In this document: one piece after another, positions 3,250 through 47,984 of the stretch
How positions within the stretch are numbered: the stretch's first letter is position 1
Layout of the letters: every line of letters starts with the position of its first letter
Source: Antedon bifida
Lineage: Eukaryota; Echinodermata; Crinoidea; Comatulida; Antedonidae
DNA: 64,000 bases
NCBI GenBank assembly: GCA_963402885.1
Contig: OY727096.1
Span: 29,245,820 to 29,309,819 of the forward strand
Direction of reading: 5' to 3'
Notes under the pieces: generated by a model
The model's input: only the letters and a program-made list of their open reading frames with translations
Databases searched by the model: none
Told to the model about the DNA's origin: nothing
Translations under genes and position numbers: made by a program

Positions 3250-4320
3250 ATGGCTGTTACATATTCTATGACAGATTATTTGAATCTCACTACACCTGAT
3301 TCTGACCCATGTATACCTCGATCAGATGAGATTAAGAAAAACTTTTGGGATTGGGAGACAACATGCCGACTGATCTTTGCCGTTCTTGGCATCTCTGGTA
3401 ATGGTATTGTAGTAGCAGTATACCTAAAGAAGCACCTAATACGTAACTCTGCGTCGTATTTTATCGTCTGCCTTGCAGCAGCCGATCTCATTTCATCAGT
3501 TGCTATGATACCGATCCCGCGTAAAGATTACGTTGAAAATACGACAATGGGAAATTTATATTGCAAGGTAATCTTTTCATCCTTACTGCTGTGGGTATCT
3601 GTTTTTGCTTCCGTATTGCTTTTAACTGTTTTAACTGTTGATCGATATGTTGCAGTAATCCATCCAACAAAATATAAATATATATTTAAATTAACCAGAT
3701 TGAAATACATAGTACTGGCCGTATGTTTATTCTCCTTCGTATTTTATACATACAGTATATACATTACCGATGTTATAGACTGTAAATGCCAAATCAAGTG
3801 GCCTAACGAAGTGTTCCGAATTTTTATTGGTGTATGTTTGTTCATGTTACAGTATTTTTTACCCGTGTGTATTATGGTGGTTGTAAATTTGAAGATCATC
3901 TATAATTTAAAAAACCAAGCCGACAATCTGATGAGACGTAACACGTCATCTAGAAACCCTGGAGTTTCGCTGATGAGAGCTAGACGAAAAATGATACGGA
4001 TGGTCATTATAGTCGTTGTTATTTTTATTATATGCTGGACTCCTGATCAGGTGTTGCATTTCGCTTACATACTCGATCTGGTAGAGGAAGAATATCTTTA
4101 CTCAGCTACATACCAGGGTTTTGTCCTGATGGCGTACGCCAACTCGTGTGCTAATCCGATAATATACATGTTTGTAAATGAGCAGTTAAGAAATGGAGTA
4201 AAAGGCTGTCTTCCATACAAACTTCGACAGCTTCTGAACATTGAAACGGATAGTTTCCATGGCTCGTCGGTTAACTGTAAAAAAACAGATAAAGAACCTG
4301 GATATGAGACAGTATGTTGA
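3250..4320 (+). CDS. Class A (rhodopsin-family) G protein-coupled receptor, peptide-receptor-like
   Basis: This is an intact 356-residue single-exon frame with seven hydrophobic segments. The N-terminus has an N-linked site (Asn12-Leu-Thr). Class A landmarks are all present: Gly50-Asn51 in TM1, the LAAAD motif (Asp79) in TM2, Cys105 before TM3 pairing with an ECL2 cysteine (178 or 180), Asp131-Arg-Tyr at the end of TM3, CWTP (262-265) in TM6, and NPIIY (302-306) in TM7. Cys320 could be palmitoylated. The general look is of a neuropeptide-type receptor that signals through G proteins at the plasma membrane. The ligand cannot be assigned, and I do not force a named orthology. It is paralogous to the receptor at 28859-29854: the DRYVAVIHP/DRYVHVVHP region and the Lys-Trp before TM5 align. 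Met1 is the first in-frame ATG, and an AATAAA lies at 4721. Confidence 0.93.
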   Translation: MAVTYSMTDYLNLTTPDSDPCIPRSDEIKKNFWDWETTCRLIFAVLGISGNGIVVAVYLKKHLIRNSASYFIVCLAAADLISSVAMIPIPRKDYVENTTMGNLYCKVIFSSLLLWVSVFASVLLLTVLTVDRYVAVIHPTKYKYIFKLTRLKYIVLAVCLFSFVFYTYSIYITDVIDCKCQIKWPNEVFRIFIGVCLFMLQYFLPVCIMVVVNLKIIYNLKNQADNLMRRNTSSRNPGVSLMRARRKMIRMVIIVVVIFIICWTPDQVLHFAYILDLVEEEYLYSATYQGFVLMAYANSCANPIIYMFVNEQLRNGVKGCLPYKLRQLLNIETDSFHGSSVNCKKTDKEPGYETVC

Positions 4321-10542: not shown

Positions 10543-10897
10543 TTAAAGATATATTGTCCCCCTAAAAAATAATTTTTTAAATTGTTGTTGTTGAATATGC
10601 CATTTTAATATCACATAATAGTTATTCACTTTGACCAAAAACTTGATCCAAAAAAAAACCATTTTACACCAACAAAATGTAATTTAAAGCAAAATATACC
10701 TAAATTGTCTGGAAGACAATGGTTTTTGGTTGAAATTAACCATTTCTTTTGTCTTTTTATAAGTGAAATAATTATTTTTGATGATTTTTTTTCTACAGAA
10801 GTGAATAACCTTATTAAAACTGTAAAATTTCCTAATCAAAATCTGATTTTTATTAATCTTTATTTTTTCATGTTTTTGGGGGACAATACATCTTTAA
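10543..10897. mobile_element. piggyBac-type MITE with TTAA target duplication
   Basis: The element is bounded by TTAA on both sides (10543-10546 and 10894-10897). Its terminal inverted repeats are AGATATATTGTCCCCC (10547-10562) and GGGGGACAATACATCT (10878-10893), which differ at one position out of 16. The interior is about 315 bp and has no transposase. Recognisable relatives or ends occur at 43000-43066, 57440-57700 and 59510-59595. TTAA duplication is the hallmark of piggyBac-mobilised elements, so an autonomous relative is expected elsewhere in the genome. Confidence 0.8.
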
Positions 10898-12365: not shown

Positions 12366-13880
12366 AAATTTATTGCATAATAATAGTATTTTGAAAAGTG
12401 TATATTTTGGGCATTTAAAAAAAAAATCCCTGTATCATTATAGTACAGGGATTTTTTCGAAAAATTACCTAATTTCGAACTTTTTATTTTTTTATATAAG
12501 TGGTTGCTATACGTCTATAAGATGATAATAACGTAATATATGCGCATATATAGCAAAATTACTGCATAATAATAGTATTTTGAAAAGTGTATAATTTTGG
12601 GAATTTTTTGAAAAAAATCCTGTAGGCCTCACATAGTACAGGGATTTTTTCGAAAAATTCCAAAATTTCGAACTTTTTATTTTTTGATATCAATAGTTAC
12701 TATAAGATGATAATAACGTAATATATTCGCACATAGCAAAATTATTGCATAATAATAGTATTTTGAAAAGTGCATATTTTGGCCATTTTTGAAAAAATCC
12801 CTGTACTTTCGACCTTTTTTTTTATATAAATGGTTACTATACGTCTATAAGTTGATGATAACGCAATATATACGAATATATAGCAACATTATTGCATAAT
12901 AATAGTATTTTGAAAAGTGCATATTTTTGCCATTTTTTAAAAAAATCCCTGTACTATAGTAGGCCTACAGGGATTTTTTCCAAAAATGCCCAAATTTCGA
13001 CCTTTTTATTTTTTTATATAAATGGTTACTATAGGTCTATAAGATGATAATAACGTAATATATGCGCATTTATAGCAAAATTATTGCATAATAATAGTAT
13101 TTTGAAAAGTGCATATTTTGGCAATTTTTTCGAAAAATTCCCAAATTTCTAACTTTTTATTTTTTTATATAAATGGTTACTATACGTCTATAAGATTATA
13201 ATAGCGTAATATATGCGCATATAGTAACATTATTGCATAATAATAGTATTTTAAAAAGTGCATATTTTTGCCATTTTTTGAAAACATTTCTGTACTATAG
13301 TACAGGGATTTTTTCGAAAAATGCCCAAATTTCGACCTTTTTATTTTTTGATATAAATGGTTTCTATACGTCTATAAGATTATAATAACGTAATATATGC
13401 GCACATATAGCAACATTATTGCATAATAATAGTAATTTGAAAAGAGCATATTTTGGCCATTTTCTGAAAAATCCCTGTACTATAGTACAGGGATTTTTTC
13501 GAAAAATGCCCAAATTTCGACCTTTTTATTTTTTGATATAAATGGTTTCTATACGTCTATAAGATTATAATAACGTAATATATGCGCACATATAGCAACA
13601 TTATTGCATAATAATAGTAATTTGAAAAGAGCATATTTTGGCCATTTTCTGAAAAAACCCTGTACTATAAGTACAGGGATTTTTCGAAAAATGCCCAAAT
13701 TTCGACCTTTTTATTTTTTGATATAAATGGTTACTATACGTCTATAAGAGTATAATAACGTAATATATTCGCATATATAGCAAAATTATTGCATAATAAT
13801 AGTATTTTGAAAAGTTCATATTTTGGGCATTTTTCGACCTTTTTATTTTTTTATATAAATGGTTAATATACGTCTATAAG
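12366..13880. repeat. Tandem satellite array, ~186-bp monomer carrying a perfect palindrome
   Basis: The landmark ATTGCATAATAATAGTATTT recurs at about 12374, 12561, 12744, 12891, 13083, 13232, 13418, 13603 and 13788. Most spacings are 183-192 bp, with two of 147-149 bp. Full monomers contain CCCTGTACTATAGTACAGGG flanked by A/T runs, a stem that could extrude as a cruciform. The short monomers lack one arm of that palindrome. Single fragments occur at 16741-16915 and 48355-48505, and the array resumes after the foldback element. Confidence 0.85.
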
Positions 13881-15128
13881 GGTTCTAGGACACCTACCCC
13901 CTAGACAGTTACCCCCCGGATGTTTACCACCCGGACAACTACCCCCTTAGGACAACTACCCCCCGGACAACTACTCCCCGGACAACTACCCCCTTAGGAC
14001 AACTACCCCCTTAGGATAACAACCCCCCGGACAACTACCCCCCGGACAACTACCCCCTTAGGACAACTACCCCCTTAGGACAACTACCCCCCGGGTAACT
14101 ACCCCCCCCCCCCCGGACAACTACCCCCCGGACAACTACCCCCTTTCTTAGGACAACTACCCCCAGGACAAATACCCCCATGACAACTACTCCCCCCCCC
14201 CCCCCAATCCAAAAGTAGACAAATATATAGGACCGGTTTCTGTAAAAATGAAATCATCTGTTTTTAACGGGTGTTTCGAAACTAGAGACCCGAGACCAGA
14301 GACCTGACAGGGGGGGGGGGGGTAATTGTCCGGGGGGTAGTTGTCCAGGGGTTAGTTGTCCTACGGAGGTAGTTGTTCTAAAAGATTATTTGCCCTCGTA
14401 GTATCGTCAAGGTCCAGGAGGTAGTTGTCCTACGGGGAGTATTGTGTCAGAGGTAGTTGTCCGCGGGGTAATTACCGGGGGGGGGGGGTGGTAATTGTCC
14501 GGTTGTTGAATGGTCTGGGTGGTAGTTGTCCGTCCGGGGGTAGTTGTTCTAAAGGGATAGTTGTCTGGGTGGTAGTTGTCCAGGGGTTAGTTGTCTTACG
14601 GAGGTAGTTGTCCTGAAACATTATTTGCCCTCGGAGTATTGTCCAGGTCAAGAGGTAGTTGTCCGCGGGGTAATTACCAGGGGGAGGGGGTAATTGTCCG
14701 GGGGGGGGGGGTAATTTTCAGGGGGTAATTGTTCCTTGGGGGTAATTGTCCGGGGGGTAGTTGTCCAGGGGTTAGTTGTCCTACGGAGGTAGTTGTCCTA
14801 AAAGATTATTTGCCCTCGTAGTATTGTCCAGGTCCAGGAGGTAGTTGTCCTACGGGGAGTATTGTGTCAGAGGTAGTTGTCCGCGGGGTAATTACCGGGG
14901 GGGGGGGTAATTGTCCGGGGGGTAATTGTTCCTAGTGGGTAATTGTCCGGGGGGTAGTTGTCCAGGGGGTAGTTGTCCTAAGGGGGTTGTTGTCCTAAGG
15001 GGGTAGTTGTCCGGGGGGTAGTTGTCCTAAAGGGGTAGTTGTCCTAAGGGGGTAGTTGTCCAGGTGGTGGTTGTCCGGGGGGTAGTTTTCCGGGGGGTAA
15101 ATGTCCAGGGGGTGAATATCCGGATACG
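13881..15128. mobile_element. Foldback (TU-like) element with tandem-repeat inverted arms
   Basis: The left arm (13881-14205) consists of tandem 15-17-bp units of the type GGACAACTACCCCCC or TTAGGACAACTACCCCC. The right arm (14310-15128) is the same repeat on the other strand (GGGGGGTAGTTGTCC). About 100 bp of unrelated sequence lies between. The outer ends align as inverted repeats, with CACCCCCTGGACA on the right matching CTACCCCCTAGACA on the left. GTCTATAAG flanks both sides (13872-13880 and 15129-15137) inside the satellite, consistent with an 8-9-bp target duplication. Foldback elements such as the sea urchin TU family have this architecture. No open frame in the arms is meaningful. Confidence 0.7.
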
Positions 15129-15439: not shown

Positions 15440-16740
15440 TACTTCAAATCGGCGCTCGACAAAAATGGTACAAGTCCTTCTGTGTGTAAACTAACCCTTT
15501 ATTAGACATGGCTATAACACAATAAATACAAATTGTAAATTGCCCATTTTAATTAATAAACATAGATGCTTACACTTTCGATAAACAATATGGCTATATG
15601 AAATCGGTTTCCCGTCTTTTTGAAAACTACGCCCTTTTTTAATATAATCACGACAAACACTATCGTAATCATAAAGTATATAATATATTGTAATATTTTA
15701 AAATAAGGGTTCATAATTATTTGTAAGAAATTTTCGACATTTATATATAGCAGTTGGCCATCTAGGCTCTCTAAAAGGTACGGTTACAAATCCAAATTGT
15801 CTGTATAGACGTAAGGCTGATTGATGGCACTCTGTACATTCAAGATGTACTTCTCTGTAACCTACTCGTCGACAGAATGCTAGAGCATGTTTCAACAACA
15901 TGCATCCTATTCCTTTAGATCGGTACTCCTTTTCCAACACGAATCGTTTCAACTCGGCGATGTTGCCATCTTCTTTTGTTTCCAATACAGCTAACGTTCC
16001 AATAATCCTTTCACTTTGAAGATTTTTAGCAATGAAGTATTTAGAACGATCCGTGGCATAATGTTTACCAATATCCATAACATCATCTTGTGTTTGACAA
16101 TACGAATATATAGGATAGTAGATATAAACGCAAAACGCACACAAACCAAGTAATAGAGAAGTGCATGCTAGTGCAATAGAATGAGTACAATAGTACACTA
16201 GTGTCAATAGTGCGATGAAAATCACTTGGTATTTCCTTTCCTTGATGCAGCAAATAAACAGACTAGGTATCTGTGATTGCACGTAGATATTTCTAAATAG
16301 GTCAGAACATGTTTGATAGTCTTTCTCTTCAACAGGCTTTATTATCACTTCCATTTTAATGATTTAAACTATTTGTCACAGAGACAATGAATGAATGAAT
16401 TGACAAATGGTTCACAAAATATGAAACGTTACCCTTATTTACACTTATAACCAATTAATCTTTGATACAAAGGCTCTATTCATTTATATAATAATTATAT
16501 CTATAATAATTATACATTTTACGAAGTAGGCCTACGCACACCATATGTGCTTCACCTATTATAATCATTCGCTAATTACTGGTATAATCGAGATTTAACC
16601 GTCCTATACAGTCATTTAATTTTAATATAAACTGGAAAATTTCCGACAGAATTTTTCTAAATAACATAGTGCACCCTATATAAGTAAAAGCAATCATCAG
16701 AATAATCTCTCCAAAAAAAAACAACAAACAAATAAATACA
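15440..16740. repeat. Duplication unit A of the acetyltransferase locus
   Basis: This block matches 17080-18370 with small indels. It starts at ACTTCAAATCGG(C/T)GCTCGAC and includes the 3' flank, the whole coding region and about 380 bp upstream. The offset between coding starts is about 1.65 kb. Both ends of unit A abut satellite fragments. Confidence 0.8.
15698..16354 (-). CDS. NAT8-like GNAT-family N-acetyltransferase, membrane-anchored (copy A)
   Basis: This is an intact, intronless 218-residue frame. Residues 44-85 form one or two hydrophobic segments between an N-terminal region starting MEVIIKPVEEKDY and a C-terminal GNAT domain (about 105-205). The acetyl-CoA loop is Arg145-Ser-Lys-Gly-Ile-Gly150 in GNAT motif A, preceded by AELKRFVLEKEYR. 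Motif B contains ALRLYRQFGF (180-189). A hydrophobic segment ahead of the acetyltransferase domain is the layout of the vertebrate NAT8/NAT8L group, which act at the ER or mitochondrial membrane on cysteine conjugates, aspartate or protein lysines. The substrate here is unknown. CTTTATT at 15495 gives an AATAAAG signal on this strand. It differs from copy B at only a few positions, mostly in the membrane segment and the C-terminus. Confidence 0.88.
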   Translation of the reverse strand: MEVIIKPVEEKDYQTCSDLFRNIYVQSQIPSLFICCIKERKYQVIFIALLTLVYYCTHSIALACTSLLLGLCAFCVYIYYPIYSYCQTQDDVMDIGKHYATDRSKYFIAKNLQSERIIGTLAVLETKEDGNIAELKRFVLEKEYRSKGIGCMLLKHALAFCRRVGYREVHLECTECHQSALRLYRQFGFVTVPFREPRWPTAIYKCRKFLTNNYEPLF

Positions 16741-17079: not shown

Positions 17080-18370
17080 TTCAAATCGGTGCTCGACAAA
17101 AAAGTCCTTTTATGTGTAAACTATACCCTTTATTAGACATTGCTTCGACACAAATAATACAAATTGTTAGCCCATTTTAATTCATTAACATATAACATAG
17201 ATGCTTACACCTTCGATAAACAATGGGTCTATATGAAATCAATTTCACCTCTTTTTGAAAACTACACCCTTTTATAATATAATCACGACTAAGATTATCT
17301 TAATAATAATGTATATAATAATATATTGTAATATTTTAAAATAAGGGTTAATAACAATTAGTAAGAATTTTTCGACATTTATATTTAGTAGTTGGCCATC
17401 TAGTAGTCTCTCTAATAATTGATACGGTTACAAATCCAAAATTTCTGTATAGACGTAAGGCTGATTGATGGCTCTCTGTACATTCAAGATGTACTTCTCT
17501 GTAACCTGCTCGTCGACAGAATGCTAGAGCATGTTTCAACAACATGCATCCTATTCCTTTAGATCGGTACTCCTTTTCCAACACGAATCGTTTCAACTCG
17601 GCGATGTTGCCATCTTCTTCTGTTTCCAATACAGCTAATGTTCCAATAATCCTTCCACTTTGAAGATTTTTAGCAATGAAGTATTTAGAACGATCCGTGG
17701 CATAATGTTTACCAATATCCATAACATCTTCTTGTGTTTGACAATACGAATATATAGGATAGTAGATATAAACGCAAAACGCACACAAACCAAGTAATAG
17801 AGAAGTGCATGCTAGTGCAATAGAATGAGTGTAATAGTACACTAGAGCCAATATTGCGATGAAAATCACTTGGTATTTCCTTTTCTTGATGCAGCAAATA
17901 AACAGACTAGGTATCTGTGATTGTACGAAGATCTTTCTAAATAGGTCAGAACATGTTTGATAGTCTTTCTCTTCAACAGGCTTTATTATCACTTCCATCT
18001 TAATCATTTAGAGACAATGAATGAATTGATAATGGTTCGCACAATATAAAAAGTTACCCTTATATACACTTAAAACCATTTGACCTTTGATACAAAGGCT
18101 TTATTCCTATATATGGATATATAGAATTGATAATTATATCTATATACATTTCCAAAGTACGCACACCATATGTGCTTGACCGATTATAATTATTCTAATT
18201 ATTAGTTTTTTAATTGAGATTTAACCGTCCTATACCGTCATTTAATTTTAATTTAATTTTAACTTGAAAATATCCGACAGAATTTTTCTTAATAACATAG
18301 TCCACTCTATATAACTAAATACAATCTTCAGAATAATCTCTCTCAAAAACAACAAATAAATAATACAATT
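17080..18370. repeat. Duplication unit B of the acetyltransferase locus
   Basis: This is homologous to 15440-16740 over its whole length, including the 3' flank with CCCTTTATTAGACAT and the upstream TTTAACCGTCCTATAC block. Unit B is not flanked by full satellite monomers. Confidence 0.8.
17348..17998 (-). CDS. NAT8-like GNAT-family N-acetyltransferase, membrane-anchored (copy B)
   Basis: This second intact, intronless copy has the same architecture as copy A: a cytosolic N-terminus, a hydrophobic stretch (about 44-85), then a GNAT domain with the RSKGIG acetyl-CoA loop and a Leu-Tyr-Arg-Asn-Phe-Gly-Phe motif B. An upstream ATG at 18007 would add three residues (Met-Ile-Lys). I chose 17998 because it is the start shared with copy A and the third copy. 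The C-terminus diverges from copy A after the TVSII segment and ends at Asn-Cys-Tyr. Both copies keep open frames and most changes are conservative, so both may be expressed. The recent duplication could also be an assembly artefact, which I consider less likely because the flanks differ. Confidence 0.88.
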   Translation of the reverse strand: MEVIIKPVEEKDYQTCSDLFRKIFVQSQIPSLFICCIKKRKYQVIFIAILALVYYYTHSIALACTSLLLGLCAFCVYIYYPIYSYCQTQEDVMDIGKHYATDRSKYFIAKNLQSGRIIGTLAVLETEEDGNIAELKRFVLEKEYRSKGIGCMLLKHALAFCRRAGYREVHLECTESHQSALRLYRNFGFVTVSIIRETTRWPTTKYKCRKILTNCY

Positions 18371-26257: not shown

Positions 26258-26381
26258 GAACAAGGCATTATACATGGCTGCAGTCGCGTGCTAAAATTTG
26301 AGTTAGTGTTTACCGACCGACCGACCGAACAACCGACCGACCGACATAGTGAGCTGTAGAGTCACGTTTGCACGCGACTAA
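26258..26381 (-). repeat. Copy of the AGTCGCGTG/GGTC-core MITE (inverted)
   Basis: It reads GGCTGCAGTCGCGTGC, then GTTAGTGTTTACCGACCGAC and further CCGA repeats, and ends TTGCACGCGACT. The flanking AACAAGGC...ACATGGCTGCAG is shared with the other copies. Confidence 0.7.
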
Positions 26382-26399
26382 AAAGGTTGTGAAGAAAAC

Positions 26400-28858: not shown

Positions 28859-29854
28859 ATGGAGCACTTGATTGATGACAGGTACAATGAAGAGGTATTT
28901 CTAAACACGGGAAAAACATACAGCGAACCTGATTTAGTAGTCCTCTTTAGGATATGCCTGGCAGTCTGTGGTATCACGTTCAACCTCCTTTTACTGGTCT
29001 TGTTCCTGAGACGTCGCGTGATAGACGGAAAACCTACATCCGTATATTGTCTCCTAGAAAGTTTGACATTTTCGAATCTGGTCTCGTCTGTTGGTATCAT
29101 TCCATTTCCTGCAGTGAGTGACGTACCGGATGATACCATGGGCTCCATCTACTGTTTACTTGTGTTTTATCCGATGTTGTTTTGGATTGGTAACATCGCA
29201 GGCATACTTTCATTGCTTTTCATAACTCTAGATCGTTATGTACACGTGGTACATCCAAGGTGTCATCGAAAACACATCGAAAGAAATCACAATCTAAGTA
29301 CACTCGTTACTTTGTGTATATGGATAATAGCAATTTTCATAAACTTTTCCGGAATATTAGTAGTTTCAACAACTGAAAATGACGAATGTACTGTTAAGTG
29401 GGTGACGATTAACCAGTTTCAAGCATTTAGTATTTTCATATTTGTCATTTTATACGCCGTACCAACTTTCTTTCACGTGATGGCGTACTGTCATATCCGC
29501 TATAAAATTAAAAGGAGCAATACGTATGCTATCGATGTCATTTTATCACAGCAATACCCACGATTTGACAGATGTTCTTCAATATCAAATGATATAATTA
29601 GTTTCTTTATATTGTCATTACTATTTGTGGTTTTTTGGGGTCAAGATCATCTTTTCTTCTTGTTGCTCAATCTCAAAGTCATATCGACGTCATTACTGCT
29701 GTCAAATTATCGCCACGTTGTTACACTTGTTGCGTACAGTTTGGCAGTCGTCAATCCGATATTGGTGATGCAAAGTAATCGTCATATTAAACGCACGGCT
29801 TTAAATTGCCGACGGGGTGTAGAGGGCGAAGACTCGACTAACGACGCGATGTGA
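28859..29854 (+). CDS. Divergent class A GPCR, paralogue of the 3250-4320 receptor
   Basis: This is an intact 331-residue single-exon frame with seven hydrophobic segments. DRY (125-127) at the end of TM3, Cys99 and Cys177 for the extracellular disulfide, and Asn42 in TM1 are kept. Several class A switches are changed. The TM2 Asp is Asn73, the Gly before Asn42 is Phe, CWxP in TM6 reads FWGQ (259-262), and NPxxY reads NPILV (299-303) without the Tyr. It aligns with the first receptor around the TM3-DRY segment, Lys180-Trp181 and the end of TM6 (GQDHLFFLLLNL against TPDQVLHFAYIL), so the two are paralogues. The open frame argues that it is used. The changes suggest altered sodium binding or biased or constitutive signalling. 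The ligand is unknown. Confidence 0.88.
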   Translation: MEHLIDDRYNEEVFLNTGKTYSEPDLVVLFRICLAVCGITFNLLLLVLFLRRRVIDGKPTSVYCLLESLTFSNLVSSVGIIPFPAVSDVPDDTMGSIYCLLVFYPMLFWIGNIAGILSLLFITLDRYVHVVHPRCHRKHIERNHNLSTLVTLCIWIIAIFINFSGILVVSTTENDECTVKWVTINQFQAFSIFIFVILYAVPTFFHVMAYCHIRYKIKRSNTYAIDVILSQQYPRFDRCSSISNDIISFFILSLLFVVFWGQDHLFFLLLNLKVISTSLLLSNYRHVVTLVAYSLAVVNPILVMQSNRHIKRTALNCRRGVEGEDSTNDAM

Positions 29855-39650: not shown

Positions 39651-39658
39651 TAAAAAAG

Positions 39659-39752
39659 AACAAGGCCATATACTGTACATGGCTGCAGTCGCGTGCTCAA
39701 GTTAGTGTTTACCGACCAACCGACCGACCGTGAGCTGTAGAGTCGCGACTAA
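39659..39752 (-). repeat. Copy of the AGTCGCGTG/GGTC-core MITE (inverted, short)
   Basis: AACAAGGCCATATACTGTAC is followed by ATGGCTGCAGTCGCGTGC, a short (CCGA)n core and TGTAGAGTCGCGACT. It is the complement-orientation counterpart of the element at 41032. Confidence 0.7.
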
Positions 39753-40328: not shown

Positions 40329-41333
40329 ACATTATAAAATTGAATAAAAGAGATTTACACTGATTACTTAATCGTACGATTTGAGTTTAGAGGTAAGCGG
40401 ATTACTTTTCAAACAAAGGTTACGGTATGTAACCTGTTGATGAAATTTATTATTAATGGGACGTGATATAATTTTTATTTTTAATTCATTTAAAATTATA
40501 TATTTTTTCTTTCTTATTCTTTCTCACATGTCTCATGATATAAACGAACAATTTCTTTCTATGTAAATGTAACCGTAAATTTCAGTTATTAAAGTCTTTA
40601 ATTATCGAACAAAATGGTCGTAAATAGCCTAAATTGAAAAAAAAACAAGTTTAAAAACTAAAGATTGTTTATCAATTTTTATCTAAAATAATTTTCACTA
40701 ATGGTATGATACTAGGCCTACAGGTTAAAATTATGAAATTAATTAATTATTAGGGGAAAACAGAAAATAATGAAAAAAGGAAAATGTTTAGAAATTATGT
40801 AATGAAACATTGAATAAATAAAGGTGCTGGTGAGCTACAAAAGATAAAGAAAAAGATTGTACATACATTGTACAGCTAATACAGTTCAGTTTTTCTGTTA
40901 ACATTGCTTACTTAATGTGTTTCTTTTTCTTGTAAACCAATAACGGTACTGTATACAGATTATAAAATAATACATTATAAATGGTATAATATTCTCTGAT
41001 CGTAAAAATACAGTACGCATTCTTTCTTTTTAGTCGCGTGCAATGCGACTCTACAGCTCACTATGTCGGTCGGTTGGTCGGTCGGTAAACACTAACTTGA
41101 GCACGAGACTGCAGCCATCTATATGGCCTTGTTTTTATCTCGTTCGTGAAACAGTATTATAGTAACTCGCGACTTTGTCGAACCTTTCCTACTTCTAAGA
41201 TATTTAACTCTTTTCTCCAAATTCTTTAAAATCTTAGTTTCCTTTTATTCTCTTTATCGCGGTGTATATTTTTTTTTATTATTTATTTTTTATTTGATTT
41301 GACTGGTAAGTTTAGTTTGACGACTAAGTATAA
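40329..41333. repeat. Tandem duplication of 1005 bp, copy 1
   Basis: Every base reads the same as 41334-42338 apart from about three substitutions that I could spot (for example GATTTGAG against GATTTTAG). It contains a complete AGTCGCGTG/GGTC-core MITE at 41032-41133. Confidence 0.92.
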
Positions 41334-42338
41334 ACATTACAAAATTGAATAAAAGAGATTTACACTGATTACTTAATCGTACGATTTTAGTTTAGAGGTA
41401 AGCGGATTACTTTTCAAACAAAGGTTACGGTATGTAACCTGTTGATGAAATTTATTATTAATGGGACGTGATATAATTTTTATTTTTAATTCATTTAAAA
41501 TTATATATTTTTTCTTTCTTATTCTTTCTCACATGTCTCATGATATAAACGAACAATTTCTTTCTATGTAAATGTAACCGTAAATTTCAGTTATTAAAGT
41601 CTTTAATTATCGAACAAAATGGTCGTAAATAGCCTAAATTGAAAAAAAAACAAGTTTAAAAACTAAAGATTGTTTATCAATTTTTATCTAAAATAATTTT
41701 CACTAATGGTATGATACTAGGCCTACAGGTTAAAATTATGAAATTAATTAATTATTAGGGGAAAACAGAAAATAATGAAAAAAGGAAAATGTTTAGAAAT
41801 TATGTAATGAAACATTGAATAAATAAAGGTGCTGGTGAGCTACAAAAGATAAAGAAAAAGATTGTACATACATTGTACAGCTAATACAGTTCAGATTTTC
41901 TGTTAACATTGCTTACTTAATGTGTTTCTTTTTCTTGTAAACCAATAACGGTACTGTATACAGATTATAAAATAATACATTATAAATGGTATAATATTCT
42001 CTGATCGTAAAAATACAGTACGCATTCTTTCTTTTTAGTCGCGTGCAATGCGACTCTACAGCTCACTATGTCGGTCGGTTGGTCGGTCGGTAAACACTAA
42101 CTTGAGCACGAGACTGCAGCCATCTATATGGCCTTGTTTTTATCTCGTTCGTGAAACAGTATTATAGTAACTCGCGACTTTGTCGAACCTTTCCTACTTC
42201 TAAGATATTTAACTCTTTTCTCCAAATTCTTTAAAATCTTAGTTTCCTTTTATTCTCTTTATCGCGGTGTATATTTTTTTTTATTATTTATTTTTTATTT
42301 GATTTGACTGGTAAGTTTAGTTTGACGACTAAGTATAA
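41334..42338. repeat. Tandem duplication of 1005 bp, copy 2
   Basis: This is the second copy, in direct orientation and immediately adjacent. It ends at AAGTATAA about 45 bp before the neurotrophin-like start codon, so any promoter elements in the unit are present twice. It carries the MITE at 42037-42138. Confidence 0.92.
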
Positions 42339-42361
42339 TACTTAATTTTTCTTATTTACAG

Positions 42362-43940
42362 ACTTTTATTATCTAAACTCGCAAGATGAAAGTTACGGCT
42401 ATATGTCTTGTTATCATAGTTGTCTGTGTTGACTTCACTTACACATGCATTCGACAAAACGGGGAAGATCTAAATCTACATAGAGATGAACGGCAAGCTC
42501 AGAATAGACAACGAGCAAGAAATAGACGGAGAAATGTAACTCGTCAGGAGGAAGCAATGACGACAGAAAGAACATCGCCAGCGGTGACAATTATTGAAAT
42601 AGAAGAGGTTTTGACAGAAGATGAAATCAGCACGGAAGAAGCAGAACTGTTGATAGGGGACATTACAGAAGATGGTAATGTTACATCAATAGACGATGAA
42701 GATATTGAGGATATTGATATCATTATAAACCCAAATAATAAGAGGAGGTGCAAGGTTAACGCTATTACACCACTGGACACTGAACAGAAGTCAACTTTGG
42801 TAATACATTATTTACTACTGTTAATTTTACAGAATGTGTAATAATTAACGATAATTTTTAATCATGTTTTCAGTAACTTTCTACTTTACAATCACTATTT
42901 TTTATAATACATTTTGTGTTGACCTCTTCCCCTGCCCAAAACCTTTTTGTTTTTAGATCCAATTTGTGGTCAAAGTGGATAACTATTATGTAACATTAAA
43001 ATGGCATATTCAACAACAAAATTTAAAAATTATTTTTCAGGGGGACAATACATCTTTAAATACAAGTATTATATTGTTACAAAATAACATGAGAACAATC
43101 CTTTGTTTTAATGTTTTTATTTACAGAAAAAGCACGAGAGAAAGATTAAAGTTTTGGAAAGAAATCACAGAGTTCTGAAAAAGGTGAATGCAAAACGACC
43201 AGTTGTAAAGTTGTCAAAAAGACAGAGAATCGAAGTGAAGGCATATCTATCAGGAGCTTTTATGACAGAAGACTCTTTACCAGAGATACGTGGCGGAGCG
43301 GTCGGTAACACGTCAGATTCACGACGAAGACGTGGTAGTTCATACAGGGTTTGCGAACCAGTCTACAGCTGGAATAATATCTTCATAACAATTGACTCAA
43401 ATGGAACACTAGTACAAGTCATTCAGGTAAATTAAAAATGAAATATGTCTCCTAAATCCGGGATTAAATATTGGTAATCAACCAAGGATATGCCACTCCA
43501 AAATGTTGGTAAATATGAAACGTAATCGTGCAAACATTTAAATTGATATAAATTTATGTTACAATTTTTCATTTTTGTTTTGGAGTTAGTAGAATACATT
43601 TACATAGTATTCATTGCTTAGGCCTACATTAAAAAAACTGTACAATTATTACTGGGAACGTTGGCGTCTGTAAACTCTGGACCAACTCACCACCTTACCT
43701 TAGGTAAAATATATATAATTATTTGTTCCGTTTAACATTGTTTTCCTAAAGCTTCAAGAAGACGAAACCTATCAGTGGTTCATGGAAGAAACCTGTCAAT
43801 CACAGATCAGCCGTGTCGTAAATGCAGCTTGTGACGAAGCAGAAAGACTCCATCTTGCTTACGTCATCAACCTTACAACCGGAAACATAGAACAGACATA
43901 CGTGGTGGTATACTGTTGTGTGGGCTCGTCGACGAATTAA
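42362..43940 (+). CDS. Secreted neurotrophin-like (NGF-family cystine-knot) prohormone, three coding exons
   Basis: The coding exons I read are 42386-42799, 43127-43426 and 43752-43940, all joined in phase 0, giving 300 residues. CTTATTTACAG before 42362 suggests a 5' UTR intron. Residues 1-20 are a signal peptide. Residues 25-200 form a charged propeptide with an acidic run (about 73-113) and N-X-T/S sites. Arg204-207 is a furin-type site. The 93-residue mature domain starts with YRVCEPVYSW, has a Thr-Ile-Asp-Ser-Asn-Gly turn and Val-Gln-Val strand, then TYQWFMEETC, and ends VVVYCC. This matches the order VC..VSVW, D..G..V.V, QYFFETKC and CVC of vertebrate neurotrophins. Cysteines 214, 253, 265, 293 and 294 fit knot positions I, II, III, V and VI. 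Position IV and roughly 12 residues around it are missing, and the last two are adjacent. It could instead be another cystine-knot ligand, but the overall fit favours neurotrophin. Confidence 0.75.
43000..43066 (-). mobile_element. Fragment of the piggyBac-type MITE in intron 1
   Basis: AATGGCATATTCAACAAC to GGGGGACAATACATCT, followed by TTAA, is the reverse complement of the left end of the element at 10543. Only one terminus is seen. Confidence 0.65.
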
Positions 43941-44209
43941 CGGTTCATGAAGTGTAATCCTACCGACACTTTCTGGGGTTCAACCACGAAACTACTACTG
44001 AAAACAGACCTCAACCAAATAATGATAAAATCTATTACGGGGCGCCGTTGGAACATTGTTCATGAAAATGTCATTTTAGAAGGCCTATTTTTAAAAACGG
44101 CGCCACGTAGCAGACAGACCCTCTTTAAAAATATGGACAAAATGTATCAAATTATCTCAATTACTGTGTACCATAACTATTTGTTTTATTGTTGCATATT
44201 ATAGTAATA

Positions 44210-44325
44210 CTTTCCACGTTGGCTCAACGCAATGACGTAATGACTACTTTTGCTTGTGATTAGTCAACTCGCTTGCGTTACGCCTACGTCGTTTTGTTCC
44301 GTCAAGGATAGCAGCACCAGGCTTA
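44210..44325. repeat. Degenerate copy of the GACGCAAC MITE family
   Basis: It contains GCTCAACGCAATGACGTAAT, TTGCTTGTGATTAGTCAACT and CGCCTACGTCGTTTTGTTCC in the family's order. Confidence 0.4.
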
Positions 44326-44329
44326 AGTA

Positions 44330-46320
44330 TTAATTAAGGAGTAATAATCTATAATCTACTACAAATCTTAATTTACTTTGATATTAAATTTTAGACATCT
44401 ACTTGCTTAGTATGTATCTTCTTGCAATGCAAGATTTCAATTTTTATACGAAACCCAATATAACATTTCTAACAATAAACATTTAGTTTTTCATAGTTGT
44501 GTTGAATTGTTTCTTTGTTATTTGTAGTACTATTGACAGATCCATTTTGATCTTCGGGTTAACCCATACTTCCAAATGGTTTTTGATCAATGTGTGGACT
44601 TGTAAATTAGTGATTTAAATATGTACAAATCAAACAATGTCTTAATATCAAATTATAATTAAATTATTCATAATAATTATTACATTATTGATAACTCAAA
44701 CAAATATTTACTACTGTACATTCATTAAAAAAATATGATTCATCTGAATATAATGCTTAAATTTAAGATTAATATGTTAAAATCGTTCATAAAATAAATA
44801 TTAAATATGAATTTAGTACAATTAACAATAAATGTAGGAACAAAAGTTTCACGAAAAATAGAAATGAGCTAATGTTTACGACAATAGGCGAATACAATTG
44901 TTAAAAAAAAATCTTACGTAAGCAATTTTATAGTTGTATTTATTATACGCAAGCATTTTATGCATGGACTCATAAACATTGTCTATAAAATTGTGAGTCA
45001 CTATGTGGTGAAAGAGTAACGTCTCTAAAGAATTATAAACTATACGAAATCTCTAAAACTTTTCTTGTGTTGTGTACATTATTTTTCCAATAAATACAGA
45101 ACAATACAAAATGTTGTCGCGAGGCCACATTCTTTATAATAATAACTTAATTTAAAAACGGATGCAACATTTGAATCACCAGATTGGTGTTTTTCACAAG
45201 GCCGTTACTTACTATAAAACTATTTACACAAGTTTTCATTTACAGTACATAATGACTAAAAAACTATACAAAAAGTGACACAACTGATACCAAAAAAAAA
45301 ATAAAAATAAAAAAAACAACGTTTTCAATTTCAAGTATATCTATTATTTAGTGATATATTATTTTTTTTAAATTTGTTTCTCTATAACTTTCAGGAATTT
45401 GACTGTAACAACATTCTTATGTCTCACCTTTTGGGTGAAATAAAATACTGTATATTATTATTAACGCAATTGCGAAAACATAGAATTCAACTTCTTATCC
45501 TCCATTAAAATTTACAAAAGAAATATCAAATTACATTAATGTGATCAGGGAATGAGTCTTTATGGATTTGATCGCCCACATTTTTGGGATTCGTGTCGAA
45601 GGGAGATATAATGACTGTTGTTTGACGTCACACTTTAATACCTTTATCATTCAACGATTGAATATTTAACCAATATAAAGCATATTTATATCAAGTTTAT
45701 TTTGCCATAGATCATCATAATTCTTTATTCACCAAAGGCAAAACGGTATAAACAAATAGCTTTCGCTAGTCAATGGTTTACACAACTATAATACTGTTCA
45801 GTGCAAACGATTTTGATAATATAATTATACAATAATGTAAGAAAAACACAATGACAAAAAGAAAGAAATGCTTGTCTCACCCAGAGAGTGTACTCTAAAA
45901 AGTGGCAAAATAAAAATTCATTTATAAAATTAGTAAAGCTAAAACCTGCAAAAGCAAAATCAAGTTTCTTAATATCTTTGCATTTGGTACTTTATTTACA
46001 CTTTATTACTTCTTCCGCAAGGTTTTTCCTTAATGTTTTCAGGTTTTGGTTAGAACTACATTATACCTATTCTATCTCCTAGTTTAAGAAACACACTGCC
46101 TTAAATGTACCTAAATAAAATAGTATAAATATACATATTACAGTAGTGTGAATAGGCTTAAATAGAATAACTTGAATCATTGCATTGCATAGGCTACATT
46201 CGAAAATTTCCTAATGATAGTATGTGGAACAAAATGGGATAAACGCCCTTGAAACTTTTTTTTCTCTCTTTCGTGGATTTAGCACACTTTTAATCATTAT
46301 TCCATTCCATGACAAAGATA
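44330..46320. other. Intergenic stretch downstream of the neurotrophin-like gene
   Basis: AT-rich sequence without a credible gene. An AATAAA at 44478 could end the neurotrophin-like transcript but is about 540 nt from the stop. Confidence 0.35.
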
Positions 46321-46322
46321 TA

Positions 46323-46890
46323 TGTAAGGTACGGGTTTTACCCGTCTCCTCGTAGTACATTGTATATATCAGCGTGCAGCCCTGTGGTACTTCGCAGTAA
46401 TAAGTAGTTCTTATTTATGATTATCAATTCTATTATGAAATCTATGTTTACTTCATTGATGATAGAGTTTTATGTTTACATGATGAATAATGTATTTGTA
46501 CTGTAGTTATTATCTAAGTTATGATGATATGATAGAACAAGGTATAATATGGTGCGGATGATTACACCGCAGGTAATTTGTAATTAGGACTAGCGCATTA
46601 CTACTGCGCGTACAGTCAGAACGAATCAAGAAGTATTGTGTGTTAAAGGATACCGTGTTGTGTTTGCAATAGGCAGAATAAAGGAACGTGTGAAGAAGGC
46701 GTATGTTACGCCATTTTACAAAGTGTATTTAAGCTTGGCATACCGGCATTTCTTGTCTTGTCAAGTTGGGGGTATTTAGTTTTTATAAGTTTTGTGGTTT
46801 TATTGCGATACTAGTTCCTATTCGATCTGAATAAATTTGTCATTGAAGATTACATCGTCTCTTTGGCTATTATTCTTCCTGTACTTTACA
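46323..46890 (+). mobile_element. 5' LTR of a Gypsy-type retrotransposon
   Basis: The 568-bp segment starts TGTAAGGTAC and ends GTACTTTACA, the expected TG...CA with a short inverted repeat. An AATAAA (46830-46835) lies near the 3' end. TGGCGTAGTCGGCAGG, a primer-binding-site-like sequence common in invertebrate Gypsy elements, follows two bases after it. No 3' LTR was found in the window, so the element is truncated or rearranged. Confidence 0.75.
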
Positions 46891-46908: not shown

Positions 46909-47282
46909 ATAGGAACAACAGGATAGTATCCAACCCAAAAAAAACCAAAAAAACAAACAAAAAACAAACCCCCAGCTTGTACTAACACGTGGATTGAAAA
47001 GATGTTTGACACCTCTAAGAAGATTACGAACCAAACACTCGGTGATCGCTACTAACATCGGGCGGAACGTTTACATGTCACCAACCAAGGTATACTGAAC
47101 AACGAAAACCGATCAAGACCCTGACGTCCGAGGTTATACATTTGCAACCTTAGATTCAATGTTCTTACATGCATATTTGTTGTGTTTATAGTTCAAATTT
47201 CAACCATTTTTTTATGTATGTGGAATTTTTATGCAATATTTTTATGCTTGTATTCTAACGATTTTTGTCCCGCATAAATATA

Positions 47283-47984
47283 ATGGAGTTGCAGGAACTC
47301 AAAGACCAAATTGACTCGCTCAAAGCTACATTGGCCGCAGAAAAAGAGAAGTCTGAGACGGCAAAGTTGGATGCAGATGAGGCTAGGGAAGAAATAAAGC
47401 GACAGGAGACTGGTGCAGAGTCGAAGGCTGTATACATTTCCCCTGGTAGAAGGTTGGAAGTATTCCAAGGGAGGCCAAAAAAAGCAACCGAACCGATTGT
47501 AGAGGACTGGGTGGCCGATGTACGTGCCCAACTTGATATGAGAGGTTTGTCACCGGGAGCAGCCGTTGCATTTATAAAACAAAACTTAGGTGGTTATGCC
47601 AGGAAAGAAATCAATGGGCGGGGTAAGGAAGTAGAAAACAACCCCAATCAAGTCCTAGAAATTCTCCTCAAGGTATTTGGAGATGCAAATAACCTCCCGC
47701 AATTACAGCAGAAATTCTTCACTTATAAACAGGGTGCACAGCAAGATGTACTCAGTCTTTCTCTTGAATTGGTCAGCCTATACGACTCGATTGTAATATT
47801 AGATGGTGCGTATAAACCGTGCAGAGAGGCATCTTTGAAAAGCCGCCTGGCAGAAGCTGTCTCGGACCACAATTTACAGAGGGAACTGAGGCGTCTAAAT
47901 ATTGAATCACCACGACTGTCTTTCTTTCAGGACTACCATAGTTCAAACCAGGAAAGAGTTAAATTTTCTTTTCTATTTTCATAG
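47283..47984 (+). CDS. Gypsy-type retrotransposon gag, truncated
   Basis: The frame from ATG 47283 encodes about 233 residues. A coiled-coil-like N-terminus (about 1-45, rich in Glu/Lys/Ala) is followed by a capsid-like helical domain. This contains EDWVADVRAQL, AAVAFIKQNLGGYARKEI and QVLEILLKVFGD, and later QLQQKFFTYKQG, the pattern of Gypsy capsids and domesticated PNMA/ARC-type relatives. It would form the retrotransposon particle core. The frame ends after a short divergent tail, with no zinc knuckle, protease or reverse transcriptase behind it, so the element cannot move on its own. It lies about 390 bp downstream of the LTR, as expected. Confidence 0.75.
   Translation: MELQELKDQIDSLKATLAAEKEKSETAKLDADEAREEIKRQETGAESKAVYISPGRRLEVFQGRPKKATEPIVEDWVADVRAQLDMRGLSPGAAVAFIKQNLGGYARKEINGRGKEVENNPNQVLEILLKVFGDANNLPQLQQKFFTYKQGAQQDVLSLSLELVSLYDSIVILDGAYKPCREASLKSRLAEAVSDHNLQRELRRLNIESPRLSFFQDYHSSNQERVKFSFLFS

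Follow-up and report, generated by a model that had tools for sequence, protein, structure and literature searches.

A 64,000-nucleotide stretch of the Antedon bifida genome, referred to here as the window, contains a gene whose product is probably a variant of a known family: it would be a divergent neurotrophin-superfamily protein, and its mature domain carries five cysteines. The reading that best explains its features, to which we assign a probability of about 0.48, is that this neurotrophin would have lost the III-VI disulfide, would retain two intrachain bonds (one joining Cys I with the middle cysteine, the other II-V) and would form a covalent dimer through a vicinal cysteine pair (CC). 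The gene anatomy, the number, order and spacing of the cysteines and the diagnostic residues were all observed directly in the gene.

The gene lies on the forward strand and consists of three coding exons, which when joined specify a 300-residue product ending at the stop codon at 43938-43940 (Table 1). Both introns (327 and 325 nt) are in phase 0 and have GT-AG ends, and the length of each exon is divisible by three. The GC content of exons 1, 2 and 3 was 0.391, 0.403 and 0.450, versus 0.248 and 0.295 for introns 1 and 2. Codon scores were trained on four other open frames in the window, two of which are mutually 90% identical. The annotated frame had the highest score among the three forward frames of every exon (0.158 in exon 1, where the remaining forward frames were negative, 0.125 in exon 2 and 0.137 in exon 3), with the caveat that one reverse frame of exon 3 scored slightly above it (0.162). 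Under a second-order Markov model, 0.14, 5.3 and 57 stop-free runs of 154, 107 and 73 codons, respectively, are expected per 64 kb, so that length alone marks only exon 1 as unusual; the window actually contained 13, 34 and 111 such runs, several of them in simple repeats. The three phase-0 exons and 300-residue precursor proposed in the first-pass annotation were borne out by the open frames, the GT-AG introns, the exon GC content and the codon scores. Because an in-frame TAA separates the ATG from a good candidate acceptor upstream, a non-coding 5' first exon is plausible, and the position of this acceptor suggests one. The interspersed repeat in intron 1 showed 89.7% identity to positions 10543-10658 on the opposite strand in a blastn self-comparison.

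Table 1. Features of the gene and its immediate flanks (window positions; residues numbered in the precursor unless given as mature).
Feature	Position	Strand	Details
1005-bp tandem duplication	40329-41333 and 41334-42338	+	99.7% identity; directly upstream of the gene
Candidate 3' splice site	42342..42361	+	TTAATTTTTCTTATTTACAG; 24 nt upstream of ATG 42386; predicted from sequence
Coding exon 1	42386..42799	+	Residues 1-138: hydrophobic signal-like N-terminus and acidic propeptide; open frame, donor TTG/GTAATA
Intron 1, phase 0	42800..43126	+	Contains interspersed repeat 42946-43059
Coding exon 2	43127..43426	+	Residues 139-238: remaining propeptide, RRRR and start of mature domain; acceptor TTTTATTTACAG, donor CAG/GTAAAT
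RRRR processing site, predicted	43322..43333	+	Residues 204-207
Mature Cys 7 (C214)	43352..43354	+	Cys I by alignments; seventh residue after RRRR
Intron 2, phase 0	43427..43751	+	Separates Cys I from Cys II
Coding exon 3 with stop codon	43752..43940	+	Residues 239-300, uninterrupted from Cys II to the C-terminus; acceptor TTTTCCTAAAG
Mature Cys 46 (C253)	43794..43796	+	Cys II; Q at -7
Mature Cys 58 (C265), middle cysteine	43830..43832	+	Aligned on III; distance to the last pair fits IV
Vicinal pair Cys 86-Cys 87 (C293, C294)	43914..43919	+	Read as putative dimer cysteine and Cys V; Gly 89 in place of Cys VI
Possible polyadenylation signal	44474..44479	+	Nearest downstream AATAAA in a pattern scan

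The N-terminus of the precursor is hydrophobic and, as judged by eye, resembles a signal peptide. There are two matches to R-x-[KR]-R in the precursor: RNRR at residue 45, within the propeptide, and the RRRR site already recorded in the first-pass annotation, after which the mature domain comprises 93 residues. The secreted precursor proposed earlier is predicted from the hydrophobic N-terminus and the basic site ahead of Cys I. A motif scan placed N-glycosylation motifs at residues 50, 98, 199, 230 and 278. The mature domain contains five cysteines, and its C-terminal pair is CC instead of CxC, as had been described. Two single-sequence AlphaFold models of six strands were all-beta; their low confidence (pLDDT 47.1 and 55.7) counts against the preferred reading.

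According to the first-pass annotation, about 12 residues around cysteine IV were absent, together with that cysteine, and Cys I was left unpaired. In agreement with a missing IV, MAFFT, hhalign and HMMER all aligned the middle cysteine on III. Our own alignment, left unforced, did the same under five of the six parameter sets; under the remaining one, with steep gap costs, the free optimum outscored both forced III and forced IV. Forcing the middle cysteine to IV rather than III cost 7-15 score units in all six sets, which argues against loss of the III-VI bond. Against a missing IV stand the distance to the terminal pair and the dimer cysteine reported beside Cys V in sea urchin NT2, both of which favour loss of III-VI instead. 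From the middle cysteine to the first of the pair there are 28 residues, the same as between IV and V in NGF (28, versus 40 for III-V) and close to the 30 between IV and the first of the CC in Spaetzle. The distance from Cys II to the middle cysteine is 12 residues, compared with 10 (II-III) and 22 (II-IV) in NGF and 7 and 21 in Spaetzle. Spacing was dropped as sufficient by itself to make the middle cysteine IV, since the forced alignments went against it, and both assignments were kept. The figure of 12 absent residues proved too large. With the middle cysteine on III, the gap near IV was 8 residues (MAFFT, hhalign) or 5 (our own alignment). Between Cys II and the terminal pair, NGF has 9-10 residues more than the domain and Spaetzle 11-12 more. 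Relative to NGF the loss is spread: counted from Cys II, 6 residues are missing ahead of the YV.LT/FV.LT strand, and the last hairpin lacks another 3-4. Of 12 forced comparisons, 10 favoured placing the second cysteine of the pair on Cys V, some by just 0.3 units. The two exceptions, in which the middle cysteine was forced to IV under steep gap costs, put the first of the pair there and thus speak against the preferred reading. If Cys 87 is Cys V, Cys 86 would be the dimer cysteine and Cys VI would have been replaced by Gly.

For the product of the gene, we infer secretion, cleavage, bonding, dimerisation and a receptor as follows. The secreted precursor would be cut after RRRR, yielding a mature domain whose motifs follow the neurotrophin order. 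The III-VI knot disulfide would have been lost alongside a shortening of the part that links Cys II to the last hairpin, with the second cysteine of the pair acting as Cys V, the first as the dimer cysteine and Gly standing at Cys VI. Within the chain, Cys I would bond to the middle cysteine (an I-IV type of bond) and Cys II to Cys V, and two chains would be held together as a covalent dimer by the extra cysteine beside V, an arrangement found in Spaetzle and proposed for sea urchin NT2. Since III-VI would be the lost bond while the other two stay and the extra cysteine dimerises, all five cysteines would have a partner. The receptor of the dimer may be of the Trk, p75 or Toll type. As described in PMC2772990, sea urchin Sp-NT2 and acorn worm NTb carry an extra, Spz-like cysteine adjoining the fifth, which permits a disulfide-bonded homodimer. 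More tentatively, the gene could represent a neurotrophin lineage that gave up one knot disulfide and holds its active dimer covalently, standing between the neurotrophin, Spaetzle and IL-17 knots.

The placement of the middle cysteine on III by three aligners and by our unforced alignment would suit a different arrangement, an IL-17-style knot reduced to its ring. Here the middle cysteine would serve as III and the terminal two as V and VI; bonds II-V and III-VI would be kept and I-IV lost, so that Cys I would be unpaired or bonded between chains, an option already raised in the first-pass annotation. A precedent exists in the vertebrate IL-17s, for which four knot cysteines are described, with two intrachain bonds; the third bond is said to be present in invertebrate, non-chordate IL-17s (PMC4517768). 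We nevertheless consider this arrangement less likely than the preferred one. One residue lies between V and VI in NGF and Spaetzle and none between the cysteines of the pair found here, whose side chains would face opposite sides because the two are adjacent. Such a knot would also lack the dimer cysteine that NT2 reportedly has beside Cys V.

Kinship with the neurotrophins is likely, short of proof, and the placement of residues appears to be the best evidence for it. Gln is found at Cys II -7 in the mature domain, in NGF and in Spaetzle, and the residues after it are W/Y-F-x-E both here and in NGF. The domain and NGF also share Trp at Cys I +6, and Asp lies at Cys I +14 versus +15 in NGF. 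By our own mapping, the Gln would correspond to Gln44, described in PMC2772990 as conserved before Cys II across neurotrophins and Spz. The same source distinguishes neurotrophins from Spz by the lack of Pro13, by Ile/Val rather than Phe/Tyr at 133 and by Trp130 (Tyr in amphioxus). When these sites were transferred by hand, the sole Pro of the domain fell at mature position 9 (Cys I +2), off the Spz site, and a run of Val preceded YCC; the Trp130 site had no Trp, with Tyr 81 nearby. The neurotrophin signature around III-IV, as printed in PMC2772990 ([GSRE]-C-[KRL]-G-[LIVT]-[DE]-x(3)-[YW]-x-S-x-C), was present in mouse NGF and absent from Spaetzle and from the domain, the last of which weighs against the preferred reading.

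In the profile searches, Pfam NGF (PF00243) was the top family for the mature domain, at 18.9 bits and E 0.0017 (17.1 bits with the whole precursor), under the curated cut-off of 27; mouse NGF scored 182.7 bits against the same model. None of eight cysteine-fixed shuffles matched Pfam NGF, and an irrelevant bacterial model reached E 0.0037 with the mature domain. Genuine remote relatives score in the same range, because mouse NGF matched the Pfam Spaetzle model at only E 0.00032 and Spaetzle was unlisted for the NGF model. Against a profile of three vertebrate neurotrophins the domain scored 10.7 bits. Of 20,000 shuffles with the cysteines held fixed, 20 did at least as well, and of 20,000 free shuffles, 9. 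Its score against a two-sequence Spaetzle profile, 2.2 bits, was equalled by 2,277 and 1,770 of 20,000, respectively (200-419 shuffles per set gave no score and were counted as lower). Spaetzle (PF16077) was not listed in the Pfam search, the filters of which drop most weak matches. The hhalign comparison with neurotrophins gave a probability of 2.2% (E 0.021), and phmmer returned no neurotrophin from the PDB, its three matches being repeat proteins and an unrelated protein. A profile made from the MAFFT alignment did retrieve 18 PDB neurotrophin chains, but three of its four rows were neurotrophins and the result was set aside as uninformative on the domain. The neurotrophin-like character claimed in the first-pass annotation therefore stood with respect to the shuffle-tested profile and the diagnostic residues and was statistically weak in Pfam; of the two families it had named for comparison, NGF came first below threshold and the Spaetzle profile score stayed within the shuffle range. 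On this evidence we regard membership of the neurotrophin superfamily as quite probable.

The sub-threshold Pfam score, the bacterial match, the hhalign probability and the phmmer search all weaken the preferred reading, and they would be expected of a small secreted cysteine-rich ligand from another family that had become neurotrophin-like by convergence, as would E-values comparable with those of unrelated bacterial models. Convergence is nonetheless improbable, as NGF ranks first among the Pfam families and the placement of Gln, Trp, Asp and Cys I/II, the terminal cysteine pair and the position of the processing site all match neurotrophins. No homologues of the gene were found in the prokaryotic and viral contig collections scanned, and a tblastn search of the window with the precursor gave no convincing further copy (best other E 0.64). 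The distinct cystine-knot ligand class suggested earlier would rest on this one gene, without homologues in these collections. Among the open-licence papers listed for invertebrate, echinoderm, hemichordate or five-cysteine neurotrophins, we recognised none that described a protein of this form.

The tandem duplication that ends 47 nt before the ATG is either recent or an assembly artefact, and it may copy the promoter. Its adjacency to the gene, which is predicted from sequence, would be compatible with a paralogue of an ordinary neurotrophin that is decaying or no longer expressed, and in which the absence of one cysteine marks early decay; the three exons are intact, free of stops and frameshifts, and have coding-type codon scores, which renders this very improbable. 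An exon supplying cysteine IV, which the first-pass annotation had named as fatal to its claim, was sought by a simple splice-site scan that required a pyrimidine-rich acceptor, a GT[AG]A donor and an in-frame length of 15-200, and no such exon was found. Each intron yielded one candidate, neither with a cysteine (that in intron 2 is 48 nt long). Applied to 43900-46500, the same rule gave no cysteine-bearing candidate, nor did a terminal exon containing C-x-C turn up downstream. A gene-model error that hides the missing cysteine in another exon is thus the least credible explanation: the three-exon model is a prediction from sequence and weaker splice sites would escape the scan, but exon 3 runs from Cys II to the stop uninterrupted and no cysteine-bearing exon emerged.

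Elsewhere in the window, two single-ORF GNAT acetyltransferase genes on the reverse strand (15698-16354 and 17348-18001) encode proteins that are 90% identical and apparently represent a tandem duplication. Two single-ORF genes on the forward strand encode rhodopsin-type receptors: among the best 60 of 462 PDB matches, that at 3250-4317 was closest to opioid and somatostatin receptors (E 3e-29), and the best PDB match of that at 28859-29851 was galanin receptor 1 (E 4e-8). Arrays of 15-bp units occur in opposite orientations at 13886-14195 (GGACAACTACCCCCC) and, with breaks, at 14317-15123 (GGGGGTAGTTGTCC), adjoined by longer-period satellite arrays at 12451-13833. Likely retroelement remains comprise a PNMA-like match that is weak and falls below cut-off (47259-47984) and a reverse transcriptase fragment (PF00078, 49128-49769). 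A short interspersed repeat was found in both orientations (39656-39746, 41045-41136, 42050-42141 and 26259-26385), and the tRNA and Rfam scans of the window were empty.

From a neurotrophin with five cysteines, two of them vicinal, one could learn which knot bond is dispensable and how a non-covalent growth-factor dimer can turn into a covalent one. The small size of the 93-residue domain makes it amenable to simple protein chemistry.

In vertebrate neurotrophins, six cysteines are joined I-IV, II-V and III-VI. Neurotrophins are described as having six knot cysteines (PMC2772990, PMC4812194, PMC2586362), whereas the mature domain reported here has five. It shares with NGF, BDNF and NT-3 the plan of the precursor, the motifs VC..V..W, D..G..V.V and Q[YW]F.E..C and a terminal cysteine pair, at 23-27% identity in the MAFFT alignment. 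It differs from them in lacking C-[KRL]-G-[LIVT]-[DE], in being 9-10 residues shorter from Cys II to V, in having CC instead of CVC and in a precursor split by introns. In common with Spaetzle C-106 it has Gln at Cys II -7, a vicinal CC near the end and, putatively, the dimer cysteine reported for Spaetzle; unlike Spaetzle, it has no cysteine after the CC, whose surroundings lack all the Pro positions of Spaetzle, and its Spaetzle profile score is not distinct from shuffles. No IL-17 family was listed for the domain by Pfam, whose filters drop most weak matches, whereas the IL-17s resemble it in having five conserved cysteines, four of them in a reduced knot (PMC4517768). Compared by description, Sp-NT2, NTa and NTb differ in that PMC2772990 states six knot cysteines for neurotrophins and Spz. 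Sp-NT2 further differs in Asn at the Asp30 position and in Pro136, where the domain has Asp and no Pro beside the CC, a discrepancy that tells against the preferred reading. Sp-NT2 is like the Antedon gene in its multi-exon precursor and, together with NTb, in the extra cysteine next to Cys V (PMC2772990). Reduced or altered knots are reported in related folds, namely in Spz6, in a moth Spaetzle and in the vertebrate IL-17s.
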